Shown here: positions 16,136-26,451 of the stretch, piece by piece
Numbering within the stretch: position 1 is the first letter of the stretch
Layout of the letters: each line of letters starts with the position of its first letter
Position numbers and translations under genes: made by a program
Notes under the pieces: generated by a model
What the model was told of the DNA's origin: nothing
Database searches by the model: none
What the model saw: the letters and a program-made list of their open reading frames with translations, nothing else
Assembly: GCF_947489565.1 (NCBI RefSeq)
Contig: NZ_CANLEA010000001.1
Location: forward strand, 186,001-250,000
Length of the DNA stretch: 64,000 bases
Reading direction: 5' to 3'
From: an uncultured Kordia sp.
Lineage (GTDB): Bacteria; Bacteroidota; Bacteroidia; Flavobacteriales; Flavobacteriaceae

Positions 16136-16192
16136 ATGCAATACACTTTCAAGTATAATCCAAAATTAGTAAGTTTATTAAAAATCATTTCT

Positions 16193-16585
16193 ATGACAAT
16201 AACTATTAAGGATGAATCCCTTACGGGCGATATTCTCAATCAAATACAAATTGCTGTCGAAAGTGAAATCGTCACAGTAAAAGATATTATTGAAGCAAGA
16301 GTTACCTCAGAAGTAGAAGCGTATAATAACAAACGTCCAGATTATTTTAAAGGCTTTATTCGTCCCACAGCATCCGAAGAAACACTTAATGGTTACAAAC
16401 TCAAAAAAAACCGTGCTAAAATTGATGCTGAACAACAAACATTCATCGCTTTAAATGCATTTCAGCAAAATGGATATCTCGTTTTAGTAGATGATCAACA
16501 AGCAGAAAATTTAGAACAAGAAGTGCTCGTTACAGCTACCACAACCGTTAGCTTTGTGAAACTTACGCCTTTAGTAGGTGGATAA
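16193..16585 (+). CDS. small protein with C-terminal Gly-Gly, possible ubiquitin-like/sulfur-carrier fold
   Basis: A 130-residue protein of no family I can name. It begins MTITIKDESLTGDIL (strand-turn-strand), then a helix (VTVKDIIEARVTSEVEAYN), a variable part, a second helix (DAEQQTFIALNAF), a strand YLVLVDD and the ending TTTVSFVKLTPLVGG. ThiS and MoaD end in a comparable strand plus GG (MoaD: EVAFFPPVTGG), and this gene is in an operon with an E1-like enzyme, so a beta-grasp carrier is a reasonable inference. At 130 residues it is longer than MoaD/ThiS/ubiquitin (65-80) because of about 45 extra residues in the middle. An upstream ATG at 16136 abuts the terminator T-run and was rejected; 16193 gives a sensible N-terminus. 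The next gene starts 9 bp downstream. Confidence 0.75.
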   Translation: MTITIKDESLTGDILNQIQIAVESEIVTVKDIIEARVTSEVEAYNNKRPDYFKGFIRPTASEETLNGYKLKKNRAKIDAEQQTFIALNAFQQNGYLVLVDDQQAENLEQEVLVTATTTVSFVKLTPLVGG

Positions 16586-16594
16586 AATGATACC

Positions 16595-19183
16595 ATGGGA
16601 TTTACAGACAGTCTAAAACATTTATTTGGCGCTAAAAAAGAAGAGATCACTTCAGAAAATGCTGTGTATGAAGAACAGCTAAGAGAAATTAGAGAAGAAG
16701 CCTTTTTAGAAGGATATACTTATTCAATAGCGTTTTCAAAATTAAAATCGTATAAAGAACTTAAAGCAAAAGAAGCCGCTTTTAAAAAAGAATTTGTCCA
16801 ATACTTAGCCGAAAAAAGCATTGCATTACTCAAGAAAACTACTCGAAAATCACTCACAAATATTGAAACTACCACACGACACGTCTGTGATGATTTATTA
16901 ACTACACTCTTACGTGGAAATCTTGAATATGAACCAACGGAATTTGCCAAATTGATGGATTTCTTTGAAGAATCATCGTCTTCTAAAAAGAATCTTATAC
17001 ATTTTTCAAATTGGCCAATCGGCTATGCAGCACAGCAAATAGAAAAAAGCGTCAAAAAAAATGGATTATCTCCAGAGTGGAAAACGTATATAGAAAAATT
17101 TCTAGCTTCTCCAGCAATGAAAAATAAAAATAATTATTGGGGAGCTGATTTGGACAAAGTGGAAACTAAACTCAAAAAACTACTCTTTGAAGATCAAAAT
17201 GCCGCAGGAAAAATACTTCCGTACACACATATAGACGATCAATTTGGTAAAATATTTAATGCTGAAATCATTACCGTAGAAGAAAATCTTCGCGATCATT
17301 TTTACCAACTTTGTCATCTTTTCACAAAAGCAACCAGCGGAAAGCCTTCACAACGTTTTCTTAAAAACACCAGTAGTATCATTGATGAAATTGGTATTGC
17401 CAAATACAAAGCAGTCATACATCCTTGGTTGGAACATGTAATACAACTTAAAGAAATAGAAACTGTTACAAGAAGTACCTATGCAGGGCAAACGTATGAA
17501 TACACAAATTATGAGTTTTTACAGGAAAAAAGTACCGTATTTCTAAAAGGTTTGGTGTGGAGTTTGACAAAATTTCATGATACAGCAACTTTAGCCTTAG
17601 TAGCGAAACTTGCAGAACGTTGTTATAAAAAAATTCCTGGTGTAGGTCCTGCCGCTGGCGCAGTTGGAAATGCATGCATCTATGTGTTGGGAAATACAAA
17701 AGGATTGGAAGGGATTAGTCATCTATCACGATTAAAACTAAAAATTAAGCAGAACAATACACGAAAACTTGTTGAAAAATATATTGAAGCAGCTTCTGTA
17801 AAACTTGGAATTTCTTCTTCTGAAATAGAAGAACTTTCCATTCCTACGTTCGGATTGGAAGATGGAGCAAAAACATATGTATTTGACGATTATACACTTG
17901 AAATTGCAATTGAGGAACTAGGGAAAGTAAATTTGATTTGGAAAAAACCTGATGGTAAATCGCAAAAAACGACGCCTTCATTTGTTAAAAACACTGCAAA
18001 ACACGCAACAAAGCTTAAAAAAGCAAAAAACGATGTAGCACAAATCAAAAAATACCTGACAGCACAACGTGATCGCATTGATCGTTTATATTTGGATAAT
18101 CGTATTTGGAGTTATGAAAACTTCAAAAAACATTATTTAAATCATGGTTTGGTTAGTTTTATCGCAAAAAGACTCTTATGGCAATTTAAAAAAGGAGAAA
18201 ATTTTGTTACCGCTTTATATATCAATAATCAGTGGACAACTCAAGAAGATACTACACTAGATTGGATTACGGAAGAAACGGAAGTTCGTTTATGGCATCC
18301 AATTCATGAAACAGTGGATGGTGTATTATTTTGGAGAAAAAAGTTAGAAACACTCGAACTCAAACAACCACTTAAACAAGCCTATCGCGAGGTATACATA
18401 TTAACTGATGCTGAGGTCACTACAAAAACGTATAGCAACCGAATGGCGGCGCATATTTTAAAGCAACATCAATTCAATGCATTGACAAGTATTCGTGGAT
18501 GGAAATATTCATTGTTAGGTGCGTATGATGATGGATATGACCGACAACTGGCAACCATTAACGTAAAAGCGCACCACATAGAAGCACAATTTTGGATTAA
18601 CGAATTGAATGCAGATGATCAATTTAATGATGCTGGAATTTGGAATTATGTCGCCACCGATCAAGTACGGTTTATTAAGAATAATGAAGTCATGGATTTG
18701 CTCGATGTGCCCAAACTCGTATTGTCTGAAATTTTACGTGATGTAGATTTATTTGTGGGCGTTTGTAGTGTTGGAAACGATCCGGAATGGAGAGATAATG
18801 GTGGATTGCCACAATATCGCGACTATTGGACTAGCTATTCTTTTGGAGATTTAACGGAAGTTGCAAAAACCAGAAAAGGCATTTTAGAAAAACTATTGCC
18901 ACGATTAAAAATCAACAAAGTAGCTACAATTGACGGGAAGTTTTTACGTATCAAAGGAACCAGACGCACCTACAAAATCCACATTGGAAGTTCTAATATT
19001 TTGATGGAACCCAACGATCAATATTTATGTATTGTTCCTGCGAGAGGGAAAGATAAAAATACAAGCAATATCTTCTTGCCTTTTGAAGGCGATCGTGGAT
19101 TATCATTGGTGTTAAGTAAGGCGTTTTTATTGGCAGAAGATGATAAAATCACAGATAAAACCATTCTAAGTCAAATCAAATAA
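16595..19183 (+). CDS. DUF4132 (MolR/YehI-like) family protein
   Basis: An 862-residue cytoplasmic protein. The C-terminal third matches the DUF4132 domain of E. coli YehI/MolR proteins from memory: QAYREVYILTDAE, YSNRMAAHILKQHQF, SEILRDVDLFVGVCSVGNDP (about residue 705-730), LPRLKI and YKIHIGSSNILMEPNDQYL (about 790-810). The N-terminal two thirds is helical and not recognised. Biochemical function of DUF4132 is not established to my knowledge. It sits 9 bp after the Gly-Gly protein and its stop overlaps the E1-like gene by one base, so the three are translated as a unit. It could be a ligase-like factor, target-recruiting protein or substrate of that module; this is speculation. Confidence 0.85.
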   Translation: MGFTDSLKHLFGAKKEEITSENAVYEEQLREIREEAFLEGYTYSIAFSKLKSYKELKAKEAAFKKEFVQYLAEKSIALLKKTTRKSLTNIETTTRHVCDDLLTTLLRGNLEYEPTEFAKLMDFFEESSSSKKNLIHFSNWPIGYAAQQIEKSVKKNGLSPEWKTYIEKFLASPAMKNKNNYWGADLDKVETKLKKLLFEDQNAAGKILPYTHIDDQFGKIFNAEIITVEENLRDHFYQLCHLFTKATSGKPSQRFLKNTSSIIDEIGIAKYKAVIHPWLEHVIQLKEIETVTRSTYAGQTYEYTNYEFLQEKSTVFLKGLVWSLTKFHDTATLALVAKLAERCYKKIPGVGPAAGAVGNACIYVLGNTKGLEGISHLSRLKLKIKQNNTRKLVEKYIEAASVKLGISSSEIEELSIPTFGLEDGAKTYVFDDYTLEIAIEELGKVNLIWKKPDGKSQKTTPSFVKNTAKHATKLKKAKNDVAQIKKYLTAQRDRIDRLYLDNRIWSYENFKKHYLNHGLVSFIAKRLLWQFKKGENFVTALYINNQWTTQEDTTLDWITEETEVRLWHPIHETVDGVLFWRKKLETLELKQPLKQAYREVYILTDAEVTTKTYSNRMAAHILKQHQFNALTSIRGWKYSLLGAYDDGYDRQLATINVKAHHIEAQFWINELNADDQFNDAGIWNYVATDQVRFIKNNEVMDLLDVPKLVLSEILRDVDLFVGVCSVGNDPEWRDNGGLPQYRDYWTSYSFGDLTEVAKTRKGILEKLLPRLKINKVATIDGKFLRIKGTRRTYKIHIGSSNILMEPNDQYLCIVPARGKDKNTSNIFLPFEGDRGLSLVLSKAFLLAEDDKITDKTILSQIK

Positions 19184-19851
19184 TGAAGGAGGCAGAAGCG
19201 TTTAAAGCAAAATTAGCACAAAGCCATATTGCCGTCATCGGTTGTGGCGGTTTGGGTTGTGGAACGCTTATGTCTTTGGCACTGCTTGGTGTTGGAACTT
19301 TGACACTTATTGATGACGATCTTGTGGAAGAAGACAATTTGCAACGTCAATTATTATATGACTTAAATGCTGTTGGAAAGTACAAATGTGACATCGCGAA
19401 AGCACAACTACAAGCACGCAACACAACGATTGAAATTAGAACATTCAGAGAACGATTAACGTCTAAAAACAGTGAACAATTACTTCAGGAAGTAGATCTT
19501 GTTTTAGATTGTACCGATAATTACGCCGCCCGATTGGTGATTGATGCTTTCTGTAGCAAACATCAAATTCCTATGATATATACAGGCGTAAAAGCTTCTG
19601 AAGGTCATATTTCGGTATTCAATTACAAAGGAGGAAAATCAATGGAGGAAACCTTTATAAACGATCAAAACATTTTCCAAGCAGAAGATTGTAATGATTC
19701 CAGAGTCATGCCGCAAATAGTCGCAATGGCATCTAGTTTTCAGGTCAACGAAGTGATCAAAATTCTGCAAGAAGCTTCAAATGTATTGCAAGGAAAGCTA
19801 CAAGTATTCAATCTTTCTAAAAATGTATTTCGGGTGTTTGATTTAAGATAA
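19183..19851 (+). CDS. E1-like adenylating enzyme (ThiF/MoeB/HesA family)
   Basis: A 222-residue protein with all signature ATP-binding elements of E1-like enzymes: Rossmann loop GCGGLG (20-25), DDD (45-47), the Arg of NLQRQ (residue 55), a Lys in GKYKCDIAK and DCTDN (109-113). These activate the C-terminal Gly of a carrier protein as acyl-adenylate. It lacks the paired CxxC zinc motifs of MoeB and has no rhodanese domain; Cys170 (EDC) is the only evident candidate thiolating Cys in the expected region. The N-terminus is about 15 residues shorter than MoeB and lacks its RYxRQ motif. The start overlaps the DUF4132 stop (TAATG). With the Gly-Gly protein two genes upstream, it probably activates that protein rather than serving thiamin or molybdopterin synthesis, since no thi or moa genes are adjacent. 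Confidence 0.9.
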   Translation: MKEAEAFKAKLAQSHIAVIGCGGLGCGTLMSLALLGVGTLTLIDDDLVEEDNLQRQLLYDLNAVGKYKCDIAKAQLQARNTTIEIRTFRERLTSKNSEQLLQEVDLVLDCTDNYAARLVIDAFCSKHQIPMIYTGVKASEGHISVFNYKGGKSMEETFINDQNIFQAEDCNDSRVMPQIVAMASSFQVNEVIKILQEASNVLQGKLQVFNLSKNVFRVFDLR

Positions 19852-21911: not shown

Positions 21912-22175
21912 TTAGAAAGGACAACCTAAAGCAGATTGGCATCCGTCTACTATTGATTGACAACCAGGACCTCCAACAGTTTGAATCGTTCCGCACTCAA
22001 TAATATTCAGTGTTTCGCAATTAAATCTTGTCAAACAAAAACGTGTTGGACAAAACAAAGTCACTGGGCAAGCAGCCGTAAGGAATGTTCCTCCACTCAC
22101 TTGACTCTTTTCTAAATTAGACACAATATTCTTATTCAGTGTCAACTTCTTTAAACTCTTTTTATTTTTTTTCAT
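21912..22175 (-). CDS. GG-leader Cys-rich precursor peptide (class I lanthipeptide-like)
   Basis: An 87-residue peptide. The leader (1-29) reads MKKNKKSLKKLTLNKNIVSN then LEKSQVSGG, matching the Bacteroidetes lanthipeptide/natural-product leader. The 58-residue core holds eight Cys (36, 42, 47, 53, 61, 72, 79, 85) and many Thr/Ser, suited to thioether or disulfide formation, and ends in GCPF exactly like the neighbouring peptide. It lies 24 bp downstream of the CPIDT-repeat peptide on the same strand, so the pair is co-transcribed. No modification enzyme is near. Confidence 0.85.
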   Translation of the reverse strand: MKKNKKSLKKLTLNKNIVSNLEKSQVSGGTFLTAACPVTLFCPTRFCLTRFNCETLNIIECGTIQTVGGPGCQSIVDGCQSALGCPF

Positions 22176-22199: not shown

Positions 22200-22472
22200 T
22201 TAAAATGGACAACCAACTGTGTCAATAGGACAAGCGATTGTATCAATAGGACATGCTAAAGTATCAATTGGACAATTCCAACGTGTATCAATAGGACAAA
22301 TCCATGTTTGCGGACAATTTGCAGTCAAAATAGGACAGTTCCAACGTGTTTCAATAGGACAAATCACTACTGTATATGAACCAGTACCTCCATTGGCTTG
22401 TTGTCCTTTCAATTTAGACACTACCTTCTTGTTTAGTGTCAACTTTTTTAAACTTCTCTTGTTTTTTTTCAT
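22200..22472 (-). CDS. GG-leader precursor with CPIDT heptad-repeat core
   Basis: A 90-residue peptide. The leader (1-29) is nearly the same as its neighbour's and ends QQANGG. The core is built of a repeated unit C-P-I-D/E-T-x-x: Cys at 38, 46, 53, 59, 67, 74, 81 and 88, mostly seven residues apart, ending GCPF. The DNA shows a matching 21-nt repeat, strongest at 22210-22290. Such regular spacing suggests a multi-ring RiPP or a repeating metal- or surface-binding peptide. An in-frame TTG at 22481 would add MKT; the ATG at 22472 aligns with the other leaders and was preferred. Confidence 0.85.
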   Translation of the reverse strand: MKKNKRSLKKLTLNKKVVSKLKGQQANGGTGSYTVVICPIETRWNCPILTANCPQTWICPIDTRWNCPIDTLACPIDTIACPIDTVGCPF

Positions 22473-22507
22473 GGTTTTCAAGTTTTTAAAAATTATACTT
22501 CTTTACC

Positions 22508-24441: not shown

Positions 24442-24978
24442 ATGCCAGTTAGTCCAAATGAAATTGCAAGTATCAATTTCAGTGCAATGTTAGGGAAACC
24501 TTTAACAGCAGTTATCGATGCGCAAGCAGCAGCAGCTTTATCAACAGTAGATTTTATCAATGAAGTAGGATTAAACGATGATGGAACTGTAAAAACAGTT
24601 TCTTTCGATTACCTTAAAGATGTTGGTGGTACCGTTTCTTTAGTGAAGTTGACAACACCTTTGTTAACAATTGTACCAATTCCTTTCTTACGTGTAGCAG
24701 ATACTACGATTGATTTTAACGCAAAAATCTCAAGTGTAACAAAAGTAGAAACAACTGCTTCACACAAGTTAGATTTAAGCGCTGAATTAAGTTTACGTTG
24801 GGCTTTTGGTCGTTTTAATTTCAAAGGAAGTTATTCGTACCAAAAGAAAACCTCATACTCTGATGAAGCTAAGCGTTCATACAGTATGAATGTTAAAATT
24901 CATGCAGTACAAGATGAAATGCCAGCAGGAATGAGTAGAGTATTAGATATGCTTGAAGAGTCTATCAGAGAAGCTTAG
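24442..24978 (+). CDS. DUF2589 family protein
   Basis: A 178-residue protein matching DUF2589 from memory: LGKPLTAVIDAQAAAALSTV followed by DFINEVGL, LTTPLLTIVPIPFLRVADT, TIDFNAKISSV. The family is small, usually found with other short unknown proteins, and has no assigned function. No signal peptide. The middle is beta-rich (SLRWAFGRFNFKGSYSYQKK). It heads a three-gene cassette with the genes at 25044 and 25915. Confidence 0.85.
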   Translation: MPVSPNEIASINFSAMLGKPLTAVIDAQAAAALSTVDFINEVGLNDDGTVKTVSFDYLKDVGGTVSLVKLTTPLLTIVPIPFLRVADTTIDFNAKISSVTKVETTASHKLDLSAELSLRWAFGRFNFKGSYSYQKKTSYSDEAKRSYSMNVKIHAVQDEMPAGMSRVLDMLEESIREA

Positions 24979-25001
24979 ACCTAATTTCACAAAACTAATG
25001 A

Positions 25002-25025
25002 AGGAAACCTCTCCGGAGGTTTCCT
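25002..25025 (+). other. intercistronic hairpin
   Basis: AGGAAACCTC, loop TCCG and GAGGTTTCCT form a perfect 10-bp stem between the first two genes of the DUF2589 cassette. No T-run follows (CGCTAAAA), so it is more likely an mRNA-stabilising or attenuating element that lowers expression of the downstream genes relative to the first. Confidence 0.6.
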
Positions 25026-25043
25026 CGCTAAAAAACAAAAGTA

Positions 25044-25862
25044 ATGATTACATTAAAAGATTATATCGGAAAGATTTATAAAGAAGTCACCAATGCAAAA
25101 GTGCAATCAGATATTGAAACCTTGGCTATTGCGCAAGAATATATTCAAAATCCAATGCTAAAGCATTTTGCAGTTCCCAATATTCGTATCAAAGACATGG
25201 AGCTTACAATTCCAGTGGCGGTAGATACAACGCAAACTGTTACTAGAGAATATACTGAAAGAGAAATTCAAGATGTATACGAAAAAGCATTCTATAAAGT
25301 AATGGATGACATATATCCAAATCAGACAGAAGATCAAGCGGCATACTTACAAAGTATCAAACCACAAGTAATTTCTAAAGCACAAGCACAATCTGAAGAA
25401 GCCGTTGTTGATTTACGTCAAGCAACCGCAGCAGATCAAGCAGTAGCTACACCACAAACTGATACAGCTGCAACTACGGATTCTGCTAGCAGAACAGTAC
25501 AAACAGAAGATGTAAGAACAACAGAACAGGCTTCGGCTGAATCATCATCAAACAATTATTCAGTAGCAGTAAATAAAGCAGCAATCAAATTTGCAGAAGT
25601 ATCTTTTGCTTTTGTAGGTACAGCATATATGGAAGAACAAGCATATAGAGATGCATTAGTGCCAGAAATTGTAGCCAATTTACAGCCTAAATCACCAGAA
25701 ATTGAAGAGCTTCCTGTAATTATAGAAACACAACGATTAAAAGAAATCAACGATCCAGCAAGCTTAATCAGTATTAAAGTCAATATTACAGACGATGCTA
25801 TGGAATGGACAACAGATGTTGATGAAAATGGCAATGCTGTACAAGTGTTAGATTACCAATAA
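25044..25862 (+). CDS. unknown protein of the DUF2589 cassette
   Basis: A 272-residue protein I do not recognise. The N-terminal part (MITLKDYIGKIYKEVTNAKV) and the part from about 170 (NNYSVAVNKAAIKFAEVSFA) are folded-looking, joined by an Ala/Thr/Gln/Glu-rich linker (about 125-170). The phrase FAVPNIRIKDMELTIPVAVD echoes the strand pattern of DUF2589 proteins (VP.IR..D..I.), which suggests a related fold or partner. No signal peptide or membrane segment. Same strand and 65 bp from the DUF2589 gene. Confidence 0.7.
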   Translation: MITLKDYIGKIYKEVTNAKVQSDIETLAIAQEYIQNPMLKHFAVPNIRIKDMELTIPVAVDTTQTVTREYTEREIQDVYEKAFYKVMDDIYPNQTEDQAAYLQSIKPQVISKAQAQSEEAVVDLRQATAADQAVATPQTDTAATTDSASRTVQTEDVRTTEQASAESSSNNYSVAVNKAAIKFAEVSFAFVGTAYMEEQAYRDALVPEIVANLQPKSPEIEELPVIIETQRLKEINDPASLISIKVNITDDAMEWTTDVDENGNAVQVLDYQ

Positions 25863-25914
25863 ACTCACTGTACTTCATGCAAATTGTGTATGAAGCACCA
25901 CAAAACAGAAACAA

Positions 25915-26451
25915 ATGAAAACAAGTATAATAGAAAAAAATACCTTCTTTGAGGCTTCTATTTTTAAAGTAGGCTTGATTTCTGAATTGCTTCGTTCCAA
26001 ATCTTCTCGCTTTTTAGCAGAGATTGAACGTTGGCTTTCAGAAAATCAAGAAGTGTTGAAGCAGTTTGGGTTTGTAGAATCGAGCCGCATGAGTATTTTG
26101 CAAAATCAACTTTTTGTAGCAAAAGCGAAAGATGTTCCGCAAAAAAGAAGACATTTAATGATGGTTGGAGCGCATTGTTTAGAAAATGCACATGAAATGC
26201 TAACAGGTTTACACGAGCCTATTAAAACAAAACTCACACAAGGAAGAGAGACTATTCAGCAAATTTTAGTCATGGTGAAAGAAGATCCTGCATACCAAAA
26301 AGGAACACGAGAAAACTTTAATCAATATGTAAAAAATACCTGGAAACGTTTACGCCAAGACCCGCAATTTAGTTCTGTAGCCATACAATTGCAAACAGTA
26401 CTTCCTGAAGTAGATATTTACAGAATTATTGCGGAAGAAGTACAACTATAA
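25915..26451 (+). CDS. unknown helical protein of the DUF2589 cassette
   Basis: A 178-residue protein, largely alpha-helical, Lys/Gln-rich and without signal peptide. I do not recognise a family. It follows the previous gene by 52 bp on the same strand and completes the three-gene cassette. Confidence 0.65.
   Translation: MKTSIIEKNTFFEASIFKVGLISELLRSKSSRFLAEIERWLSENQEVLKQFGFVESSRMSILQNQLFVAKAKDVPQKRRHLMMVGAHCLENAHEMLTGLHEPIKTKLTQGRETIQQILVMVKEDPAYQKGTRENFNQYVKNTWKRLRQDPQFSSVAIQLQTVLPEVDIYRIIAEEVQL

Follow-up and report, generated by a model that had tools for sequence, protein, structure and literature searches.

Several described systems resemble the locus presented here. Eukaryotic Urm1-Uba4 is composed of a MoaD-like protein ending in Gly-Gly (GG) and a MoeB-like E1, and it employs neither E2 nor E3; Uba4 possesses a rhodanese domain, which the E1 of our locus lacks. 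Archaeal SAMP-UbaA similarly combines MoaD/ThiS-like modifiers with a single E1 and no E2. To our knowledge, neither Urm1-Uba4 nor the SAMPs have a DUF4132 partner, and the SAMPs are without the insert of the small protein described below. The Bil and CBASS Cap2 defence systems (E1-E2-JAB) share with our locus a bacterial E1 and a protein of ubiquitin-like fold. DUF4132 itself is present in MolR/YehI of E. coli and in other proteins, and we know of no established biochemical function of DUF4132 (MolR) apart from a connection with the use of molybdate made long ago. E. coli carries two adjacent DUF4132 copies, one of them bearing WGR, and no ubiquitin-like gene was found beside them.

The locus occupies positions 16193-19851 of the window, the 64,000-nucleotide stretch of Kordia-like DNA that was analysed. 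Its three neighbouring genes code for a ubiquitin-like protein (UBL), a DUF4132 protein and an E1 (Table 1). We propose, as a proposition with evenly balanced prospects, that these genes make up a small activation system of the ubiquitin-like kind, in which the UBL would pass from the E1 to Cys812 of the DUF4132 protein.

Table 1. Coordinates of the genes, domains and residues of the cassette in the window
Feature	Position	Strand	Evidence
UBL, ubiquitin-like (beta-grasp) GG protein, 130 aa	16193..16585	+	ORF; AlphaFold2; Foldseek
Terminal Gly129-Gly130 codons of UBL	16577..16582	+	invariant in A1; GG in 38/57 complete-tail loci
DUF4132 protein, 862 aa: helical N-terminal part, DUF4132, DUF7737	16595..19183	+	Pfam; AlphaFold2
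DUF4132 domain (PF13569)	17954..18502	+	Pfam
DUF7737 domain (PF24879), residues 757-861	18863..19177	+	Pfam
Cys812 codon, candidate acceptor cysteine, co-varies with GG tail	19028..19030	+	36/36 GG vs 0/18 capped partners
Predicted dedicated E1 (MoeB/ThiF type), 222 aa	19183..19851	+	ThiF match; residues conserved in 18 operon E1s; own branch 96/96
E1 Cys170 codon, aligned with cysteine of MoeB LTC motif	19690..19692	+	18/18 operon E1s; alignment to MoeB 1jw9

The gene trio and the fold of its smallest product

The initial annotation described three tightly packed genes for proteins of 130, 862 and 222 residues, the first ending in VGG and the last bearing GCGGLG, NLQRQ and DCTDN, and the open reading frames bear out all of this. 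The UBL frame spans 16136..16585 and gives 149 aa from its first ATG; homologues begin at the in-frame ATG 16193, which yields 130 aa with the tail LTPLVGG. A gap of 9 bp separates the UBL and DUF4132 genes, and the DUF4132 and E1 genes overlap by 1 bp. Chance assembly is ruled out, because the order UBL, DUF4132, E1 recurs at 17 loci, the window among them. Flanking genes vary among the loci compared; within Kordia, a PD40 gene is also located downstream of the operon in L002 and L003. In L029 one gene sits in between, making the adjacency imperfect, and the E1 of L004 is intact in stop-to-stop frames.

The AlphaFold2 model of the UBL (pLDDT 81.6, pTM 0.76) has the order of strands and helices of a beta-grasp and carries an insert. 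Its Foldseek matches include ubiquitin, MOCS2A (probability 0.99) and the URM1-like structure 1wgk, with MOCS2A among the best of those listed by probability and TM-score; E-values among the 50 matches listed range from 0.01 to 0.1, and the top match is not a ubiquitin. Structure prediction of residues 1-130, the fold check put forward with the initial annotation, points to a beta-grasp-like fold with moderate confidence, because the Foldseek E-values are weak and the insert is present. Sequence comparisons of the UBL gave less. Nothing better than E 0.047 was obtained in Pfam and NCBIfam, and PADLOC gave no match; for 12 UBL members, ThiS was absent from the Pfam matches, none of which was better than E 0.02. 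Comparison with 12 MoaD/ThiS by hhalign produced a weak match with GG in register (P 4.8e-4, probability 32%), weaker still with alignment A1 (P 0.021). Sequence searches of the PDB placed Urm1 third (E 1.9), with two unrelated chains ranked above it; a search of phage records led nowhere.

The DUF4132 partner, the UBL tail and Cys812

In Pfam, the middle protein matches DUF4132 (E 3e-36; 125.5 bits against a curated cut-off of 27) and DUF7737 (E 1.3e-39). A PDB sequence search with it led nowhere; its AlphaFold2 model is of low confidence (pLDDT 69.6), and the best Foldseek match, at E 0.019, is to importin-like helical repeats. DUF4132 above cut-off was found in 10 of 395 Bacteroidota genomes, with the UBL at the same locus in all 10, and the partnership already supposed from the window is thus almost invariable in this phylum. 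Beyond Bacteroidota the two do not generally go together: in the plasmid collection, only 7 of the 17 records with a DUF4132 match hold a UBL match. The pair as such is present in Bacteroidota, in Deinococcota with the radiation-resistant Deinococcus, in an alphaproteobacterium and in an actinomycete.

Both Gly129 and Gly130 are invariant in alignment A1 (13 sequences, the window included). A first set of relatives comprised 14 loci, of which L011 is cut by a contig end and its tail was not counted. Conservation of the terminal GG holds for all 13 relatives of this set with a complete tail and fails in the wider family, where 38 of 57 complete-tail loci have GG and 19 are capped (GxYW, GGW or GRLW). 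Besides L011, this count leaves out the broken L062, L078 and L082 as well as L164, whose end is altered and which has no DUF4132 within 8 kb; duplicate rows were dropped (L061 repeats L004, L060 repeats L003).

Cys812, located in DUF7737, follows the tail: it is present in 28/28 GG partners and 0/18 capped ones, the sole such column in the last 440 residues, and in 8/8 GG partners fetched afterwards, making 36/36 in all. The comparison omits L010 (no DUF4132), L063 (split DUF4132), L068 (remnant) and L128, a short Streptomyces DUF4132 protein without a UBL nearby. L121, a DUF4132 paralogue without a UBL nearby, has the cysteine too, and MolR/YehI-type proteins of E. coli have no residue aligned with it. 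Around Cys812 the pLDDT of the AlphaFold model is under 50, so that this residue cannot be placed in the model. Another candidate acceptor, Cys361 of DUF4132, was rejected because its presence is not coupled to the tail type: S, V, A and L occupy its position in the GG partners L028, L079, L119 and L120, and A in two Deinococcus.

The change from GG to capped tails and the loss of the cysteine may have been a single event on one branch, the Bacteroidota long type, so that p-values overstate independence, including that for the distribution of cis E1 (17/38 GG loci vs 0/19 capped loci, Fisher p 4e-4). More GG loci lack a cis E1 (21) than have one (17), although L015, one of the 21, ends too early to tell. 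Co-occurrence of E1 and GG genes at one locus, on which the earlier reading leaned, is therefore partial: it is found at the 17 loci, and was seen neither at the other 21 GG loci nor at any capped one.

The capped branch makes up a large part of the same UBL family. It has no adjacent E1 and keeps its pairing with DUF4132, so pairing does not require covalent chemistry; 18 of the 19 capped UBLs adjoin a long DUF4132 protein. A rule that capped tails go with long DUF4132 proteins is wrong, as Deinococcus combines long proteins with GG tails. Together with the restriction of cis E1 to 17 of the 38 GG loci, the E1-free capped branch marks UBL and DUF4132 as the core unit, and activation would be a feature of the GG branch.

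The operon E1 and competing readings

The third protein matches ThiF (Pfam, E 2.9e-58). Adenylation by MoeB/ThiF-type E1s depends on GxGGLG, an Arg finger, Lys and Asp. GxGG.G, Arg55, Lys68, Asp109, Asp112 and Cys170 are invariant in all 18 operon E1s, and Asp46 is present in 17 of them. MoeB and ThiF are the nearest relatives of the E1, with NCBIfam scores far under the equivalog cut-offs (ThiF 171 vs 275 bits, MoeB 140 vs 377). It is also matched by the archaeal model SAMPActivE1UbaA (E 2.1e-36, below its cut-off) and by the E1-E2 and BilD models of PADLOC, profiles much longer than the E1 itself. E1 loci were obtained for 30 of 38 matches, and 5 of the 30, with matched stretches of <=180 residues, were left out of the trees. 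Operon E1s form their own branch (support 96/96), apart from 18 trans E1s. Two separate recruitments, suggested by a first tree, were discarded: one group was not rejected (p-AU 0.257), and five more rows gave one branch.

Profile searches of this genome (G000), G634 and G626 yielded no ThiS/MoaD or MoaE match and no full-length ThiG (partial matches at E 6.5e-7 or weaker, some above Pfam's low cut-off). The operon E1 is the only full-length MoeB/ThiF-type E1 in these three genomes, and the GG protein is thus its only visible substrate. The idea that the E1 activates the GG protein gains support here, as the enzyme can hardly serve anything else; very probably, it charges the UBL tail. Pfam, NCBIfam and PADLOC scans revealed no E2-like gene among the three operon proteins, and Prok-JAB was found in 0/7 cis-E1 genomes, including this one (2/18 genomes over cut-off in all). 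Both traits differ from Bil and CBASS Cap2. The lack of a JAB peptidase, first noted for the window, holds genome-wide here and rules out a Bil-type operon.

According to the proposed mechanism, the E1 would adenylate the beta-grasp protein at its C-terminal Gly, the well supported step. The activated Gly might then be handed, directly or via E1 Cys170, to Cys812 in DUF7737, forming a thioester or similar acyl link, a step suggested by co-variation. Neither E2 nor JAB would take part. DUF4132 may subsequently forward the UBL to targets, replacing E2/E3, or may itself be switched when the UBL is attached. The capped-tail branch would have lost the covalent step and retained only the UBL-DUF4132 complex.

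Alternatively, the UBL could be a sulfur carrier. The E1 would make its thiocarboxylate and DUF4132 would use the sulfur for a thio-compound or thio-tRNA, like MoaE, ThiG or Ncs6, with Cys812 as a sulfur-handling residue. The structural resemblance to MOCS2A and the nearness of the E1 to MoeB and ThiF agree with this, as does Urm1, which PMC7911844 presents as a sulfur donor that also forms conjugates; PMC11323500 offers archaeal carriers as a precedent. We nevertheless consider it rather unlikely: the three operon proteins match no desulfurase or rhodanese model, the E1, 222 aa long, lacks a rhodanese domain, and the capped branch retains the pair without a terminal GG, impossible for a sulfur carrier.

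An unlikely reading is that the UBL is a non-covalent subunit regulating DUF4132, its tail bound in a DUF7737 pocket. GG/Cys and capped/Ser would then be versions of one contact and the E1 an optional regulator, as the E1-free capped loci and the 21 GG loci without a cis E1 would permit; against it, 38 loci from several phyla retain a terminal Gly-Gly, and the dedicated E1 branch persists next to 17 of them, also in genomes where nothing else for it to serve is visible. That a standard E1 of the Moco or thiamine pathway lies here by accident is highly improbable; this would account for the family-level similarity to MoeB/ThiF and is contradicted by the lack of ThiS/MoaD, MoaE and full-length ThiG matches in the three genomes, the separate branch and the low equivalog scores.

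Likely stress regulation in Deinococcus and wider meaning

DR_A0165 of Deinococcus radiodurans is a homologous UBL with the tail LTALAGG, adjoining a DUF4132 protein of 1626 aa; no E1 was found near DR_A0165-DR_A0166 in the 13 kb read. This pair belongs to the DNA-damage regulon, with an operator site and DdrO/IrrE control (PMC8533742, PMC9650054). Loss of DR_A0165 leads to higher peroxide resistance, and its authors call it MoaD-like and present it as a stress peptide confined to Deinococcus, without mentioning ubiquitin (PMC9650054). Their co-IP employed tags at the C-terminus in addition to N-terminal ones. Induction by DNA damage, together with the reduced peroxide resistance that the UBL causes, makes it likely that the pair regulates stress in Deinococcus. 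According to PMC7911844, Urm1 conjugates appear under oxidative stress, and flies losing Urm1 or Uba4 become more resistant to paraquat, a gain in oxidant resistance parallel to that upon DR_A0165 loss; yeast without URM1 is more, not less, oxidant-sensitive, and urmylation is viewed there as possibly a side reaction in the main.

These results link one part of the DUF4132 family to a UBL in several phyla and also to a dedicated E1; they single out a cysteine and a glycine for mutation. Membership of DR_A0165-DR_A0166 in the DNA-damage regulon makes the idea of activation and acceptor directly testable. We tentatively raise the possibility that DUF4132/DUF7737 proteins are cysteine acceptors of a new class, receiving a UBL activated by an E1 and combining the tasks of E2 and E3 in a single polypeptide; the bacterial system would have no E2, occur in several phyla and be placed under DNA-damage control in Deinococcus. 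If this is true, bacteria would gain an E2-free ubiquitin-like system, and the DR_A0165-DR_A0166 operon would gain a role in the response to damage that can be tested.

The cassette and its core pair

Reading of the open frames in the window confirmed the three-gene arrangement proposed by the initial annotation. The first gene codes for a small, probably ubiquitin-like GG protein (UBL) of 130 amino acids, counted from the ATG at 16193, the start used by its homologues. The third product is a MoeB/ThiF-type E1 according to Pfam, and a Pfam scan found no rhodanese domain in it. The DUF4132 protein between them carries DUF7737 at its C-terminus (Pfam), a domain absent from that annotation. Among the loci compared, two Kordia records are the closest relatives (92 and 85% identity), which suggests that the window comes from Kordia or a near relative. 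Elsewhere in the window, two small ORFs begin alike, with a leader-like KKLTLNKxxVSxL...GG, and continue into cores rich in Cys and Thr, in one case with repeated CPIDT; we presume a resemblance to RiPP-type leader peptides of the double-glycine class.

Coordinates of the features discussed (L-numbers denote compared loci)
Record	Positions	Strand	Feature
window	16193-19851		UBL, DUF4132 protein and E1
window	21912-22175	-	small ORF with leader-like start
window	22200-22481	-	small ORF with leader-like start
window	24442-26451		DUF2589 protein (E 1.4e-27), then two proteins without convincing family match, tandem-packed
L010	8001-8390		UBL with intact GG; next gene opposite in direction
L122	3362-8879		capped UBL (end LSGRLW) and long DUF4132 protein; record labelled Bacteroides finegoldii plasmid 89
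L125	1654-1673		20-base DdrO operator

The core of the cassette is the pair of UBL and DUF4132. Among 395 Bacteroidota genomes, the UBL profile was matched in 11 and PF13569 exceeded its cut-off in 10, all ten with UBL at the same locus, which supports DUF4132 as an almost constant partner in this phylum. If the two were independent, the chance of all ten falling within the eleven would be ~5e-19, a value overstated since the genomes are related. In the remaining one of the 11 UBL genomes, G461, DUF4132 is reduced to a remnant frame; in another genome, G076, the DUF4132 match is below threshold and contains three stops, and there is no UBL. UBL occurs in 26/397 genomes of the family sample and 14/395 of the class sample. 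DUF4132 sequence lies within the fetched stretch at 58 of the 62 UBL loci; the other four are L011 (contig end), L082 and L164 (fragments) and L010, where UBL stands alone, with no DUF4132 or E1 in the 16-kb stretch retrieved. Gene order varies: one gene separates the pair at L029, and UBL lies 3' of DUF4132 in several loci with capped tails, that is, GxYW, GGW or GRLW instead of terminal GG. Several loci (L062, L063, L013, L078, L082, L164) are broken or altered by a stop in UBL, a split or shortened DUF4132, an out-of-frame or changed tail, or reduction to a fragment, which suggests that loss of the cassette is fairly common.

Outside Bacteroidota the pairing is not general. Pairs were found in Novosphingobium (L119), Nonomuraea (L120) and four Deinococcus loci (L124-L127). 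A plasmid collection gave 17 records matching DUF4132, and 7 of these matched UBL as well; at the DUF4132 loci read from Acetobacter, Streptomyces, Burkholderia and E. coli, and at a second Nonomuraea locus, no neighbouring UBL was found.

Predicted fold of the small protein

The small protein probably has a ubiquitin-like fold, judging by its AlphaFold2 model (13 sequences; pLDDT 81.6, pTM 0.76). The predicted order is strand, strand, short strand, helix, an insert with a helix, and three strands; the last four residues score under 50. Foldseek returned 587 PDB matches, none reaching E 0.001. The top one is a cathepsin G/S. aureus EapH1 complex, and the best 50 are mostly ubiquitins, together with MOCS2A (probability 0.99) and 1wgk. 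The beta-grasp proposal of the initial annotation is supported, with moderate confidence, by fold order and by the ubiquitin and MOCS2A matches; E-values among these best 50 are 0.01 to 0.1. Against 12 MoaD/ThiS proteins of related genomes, the last 44 residues of the UBL profile align with GG in register (P 4.8e-4, probability 32%); with only 13 close UBL sequences the match is weaker (P 0.021). No Pfam model matched 12 UBL members better than E 0.02. As an independent result, the structural neighbours that PMC9650054 gives for the Deinococcus homologue include 5MPO (MOCS2A), 3PO0 (SAMP1) and 1WGK.

The tail, Cys812 and the E1

Terminal GG is conserved in part: 38 of the 62 loci end in GG, 19 are capped relatives (GxYW 16, GGW two, GRLW one) and 5 are cut or broken. 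All capped UBLs come from Bacteroidota and adjoin long DUF4132 proteins or a remnant (L068); both such long proteins that were Pfam-scanned contain DUF5724. Long DUF4132 proteins occur together with GG tails in Deinococcus. Genome G627 has both types: at L079 a GG UBL (LTQLQGG) accompanies a DUF4132 protein of 1161 aa, and at L071 a capped UBL accompanies one of 1666 aa.

Over the last 440 residues of the DUF4132 proteins, a single column, Cys812 in DUF7737, is invariant in 28/28 GG partners and found in 0/18 capped partners, which have Ser (14), Asn (2), His (1) or Ala (1); a further 31 columns do not vary in either set. Protein length does not explain this pattern, since four long Deinococcus proteins are among the 28. 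Cys812 is also present in 8/8 later-found GG loci from other families of the class. Among five aligned DUF4132 proteins without nearby UBL it is missing in four; the exception (L121) belongs to a Nonomuraea record with a GG UBL elsewhere on it.

An E1 gene lies directly 3' at 17/38 GG loci vs 0/19 capped loci (Fisher p 4e-4). As the capped tail and the loss of Cys812 may both stem from a single change in evolution, statistics on these groups do not reflect independent trials. An adjacent E1 was not seen at the other 21 GG loci, one of which (L015) ends before an E1 could show. The broken locus L078 also has an E1. Adenylation residues and Cys170 are kept in 18 operon E1s, with Asp46 replaced by Gly in one. 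A branch with 96/96 support places all operon E1s on the same side in a tree that also includes 18 E1s encoded at other loci of UBL-bearing genomes; in an earlier tree, built with 13 operon rows, they formed two groups, a single group not being rejected.

In the genome of the window (G000) and in G634 and G626, the operon E1 is the sole full-length MoeB/ThiF-type E1; G000 and G634 each have one further, partial match, which we take to be probably TcdA-like. No ThiS/MoaD or MoaE match was found in the three. Their ThiG matches are partial (E 6.5e-7 or weaker, in frames 248 to 332 aa long), although some pass Pfam's cut-off; G715 and G644 gave 1e-105 or better. We read the partial matches as other barrel proteins. 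Seven genomes of the searched set lack an E1 at the locus; GG is intact in G072, G219, G376, G379, G627 and G631, and G669 has a stop in UBL. As all seven have another E1 plus ThiS/MoaD, UBL may be activated there in trans. Some E1 also occurs in 16/17 capped genomes, so E1 presence alone does not separate GG from capped; the other, G198, has no E1 or ThiS/MoaD match.

The Deinococcus pair and a putative mechanism

According to the available text of PMC8533742, DdrO has DRA0165 among its targets, through an operator at -83, and this gene putatively shares an operon with DRA0166; mitomycin C makes DRA0166-V5 increase in wild type, a response that an irrE mutant does not show. In L125, the identical 20-base operator is found 82 bases 5' of the annotated UBL start, which identifies this pair as DRA0165-DRA0166 and contradicts the statement in the available text of PMC9650054 that DR_A0165 is without such a motif. 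The palindromic core precedes UBL in 3/4 Deinococcus loci and is missing in L124. PMC9650054 also describes the protein as Deinococcus-only, contradicted by the UBL profile matches at the loci read and by a Bacteroides match (E 2e-12). It reports better survival of peroxide when DR_A0165 is deleted, greater sensitivity of the strain that is complemented and overexpresses it, and binding of the protein to thioredoxin Trx1; its main text nowhere speaks of ubiquitin.

Among the open-access matches listed, DUF4132/MolR is nowhere joined with a bacterial ubiquitin-like protein or E1, subscription papers lying outside this search. DUF4132 itself is named in 3 of the open-access papers searched, DUF5724 and DUF7737 in none of them. 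Later E1 surveys by the group behind a 2006 survey of prokaryotic ubiquitin-like systems, which are subscription papers, could mention such a link. MolR is absent from the available text of the 2006 survey (PMC1779556).

To the established anatomy, conservation, co-occurrence, dedicated E1 branch and cysteine co-variation we would add a mechanism of two steps: UBL would be adenylated, which we consider likely, and then transferred to Cys812 of the DUF4132 protein, for which the chances appear about even. The closest known mechanism is that of Urm1-Uba4, which, according to the available text of PMC7911844, also works without E2 and E3 and is tied to oxidative stress, although the phenotypes of flies and yeast point in opposite directions.
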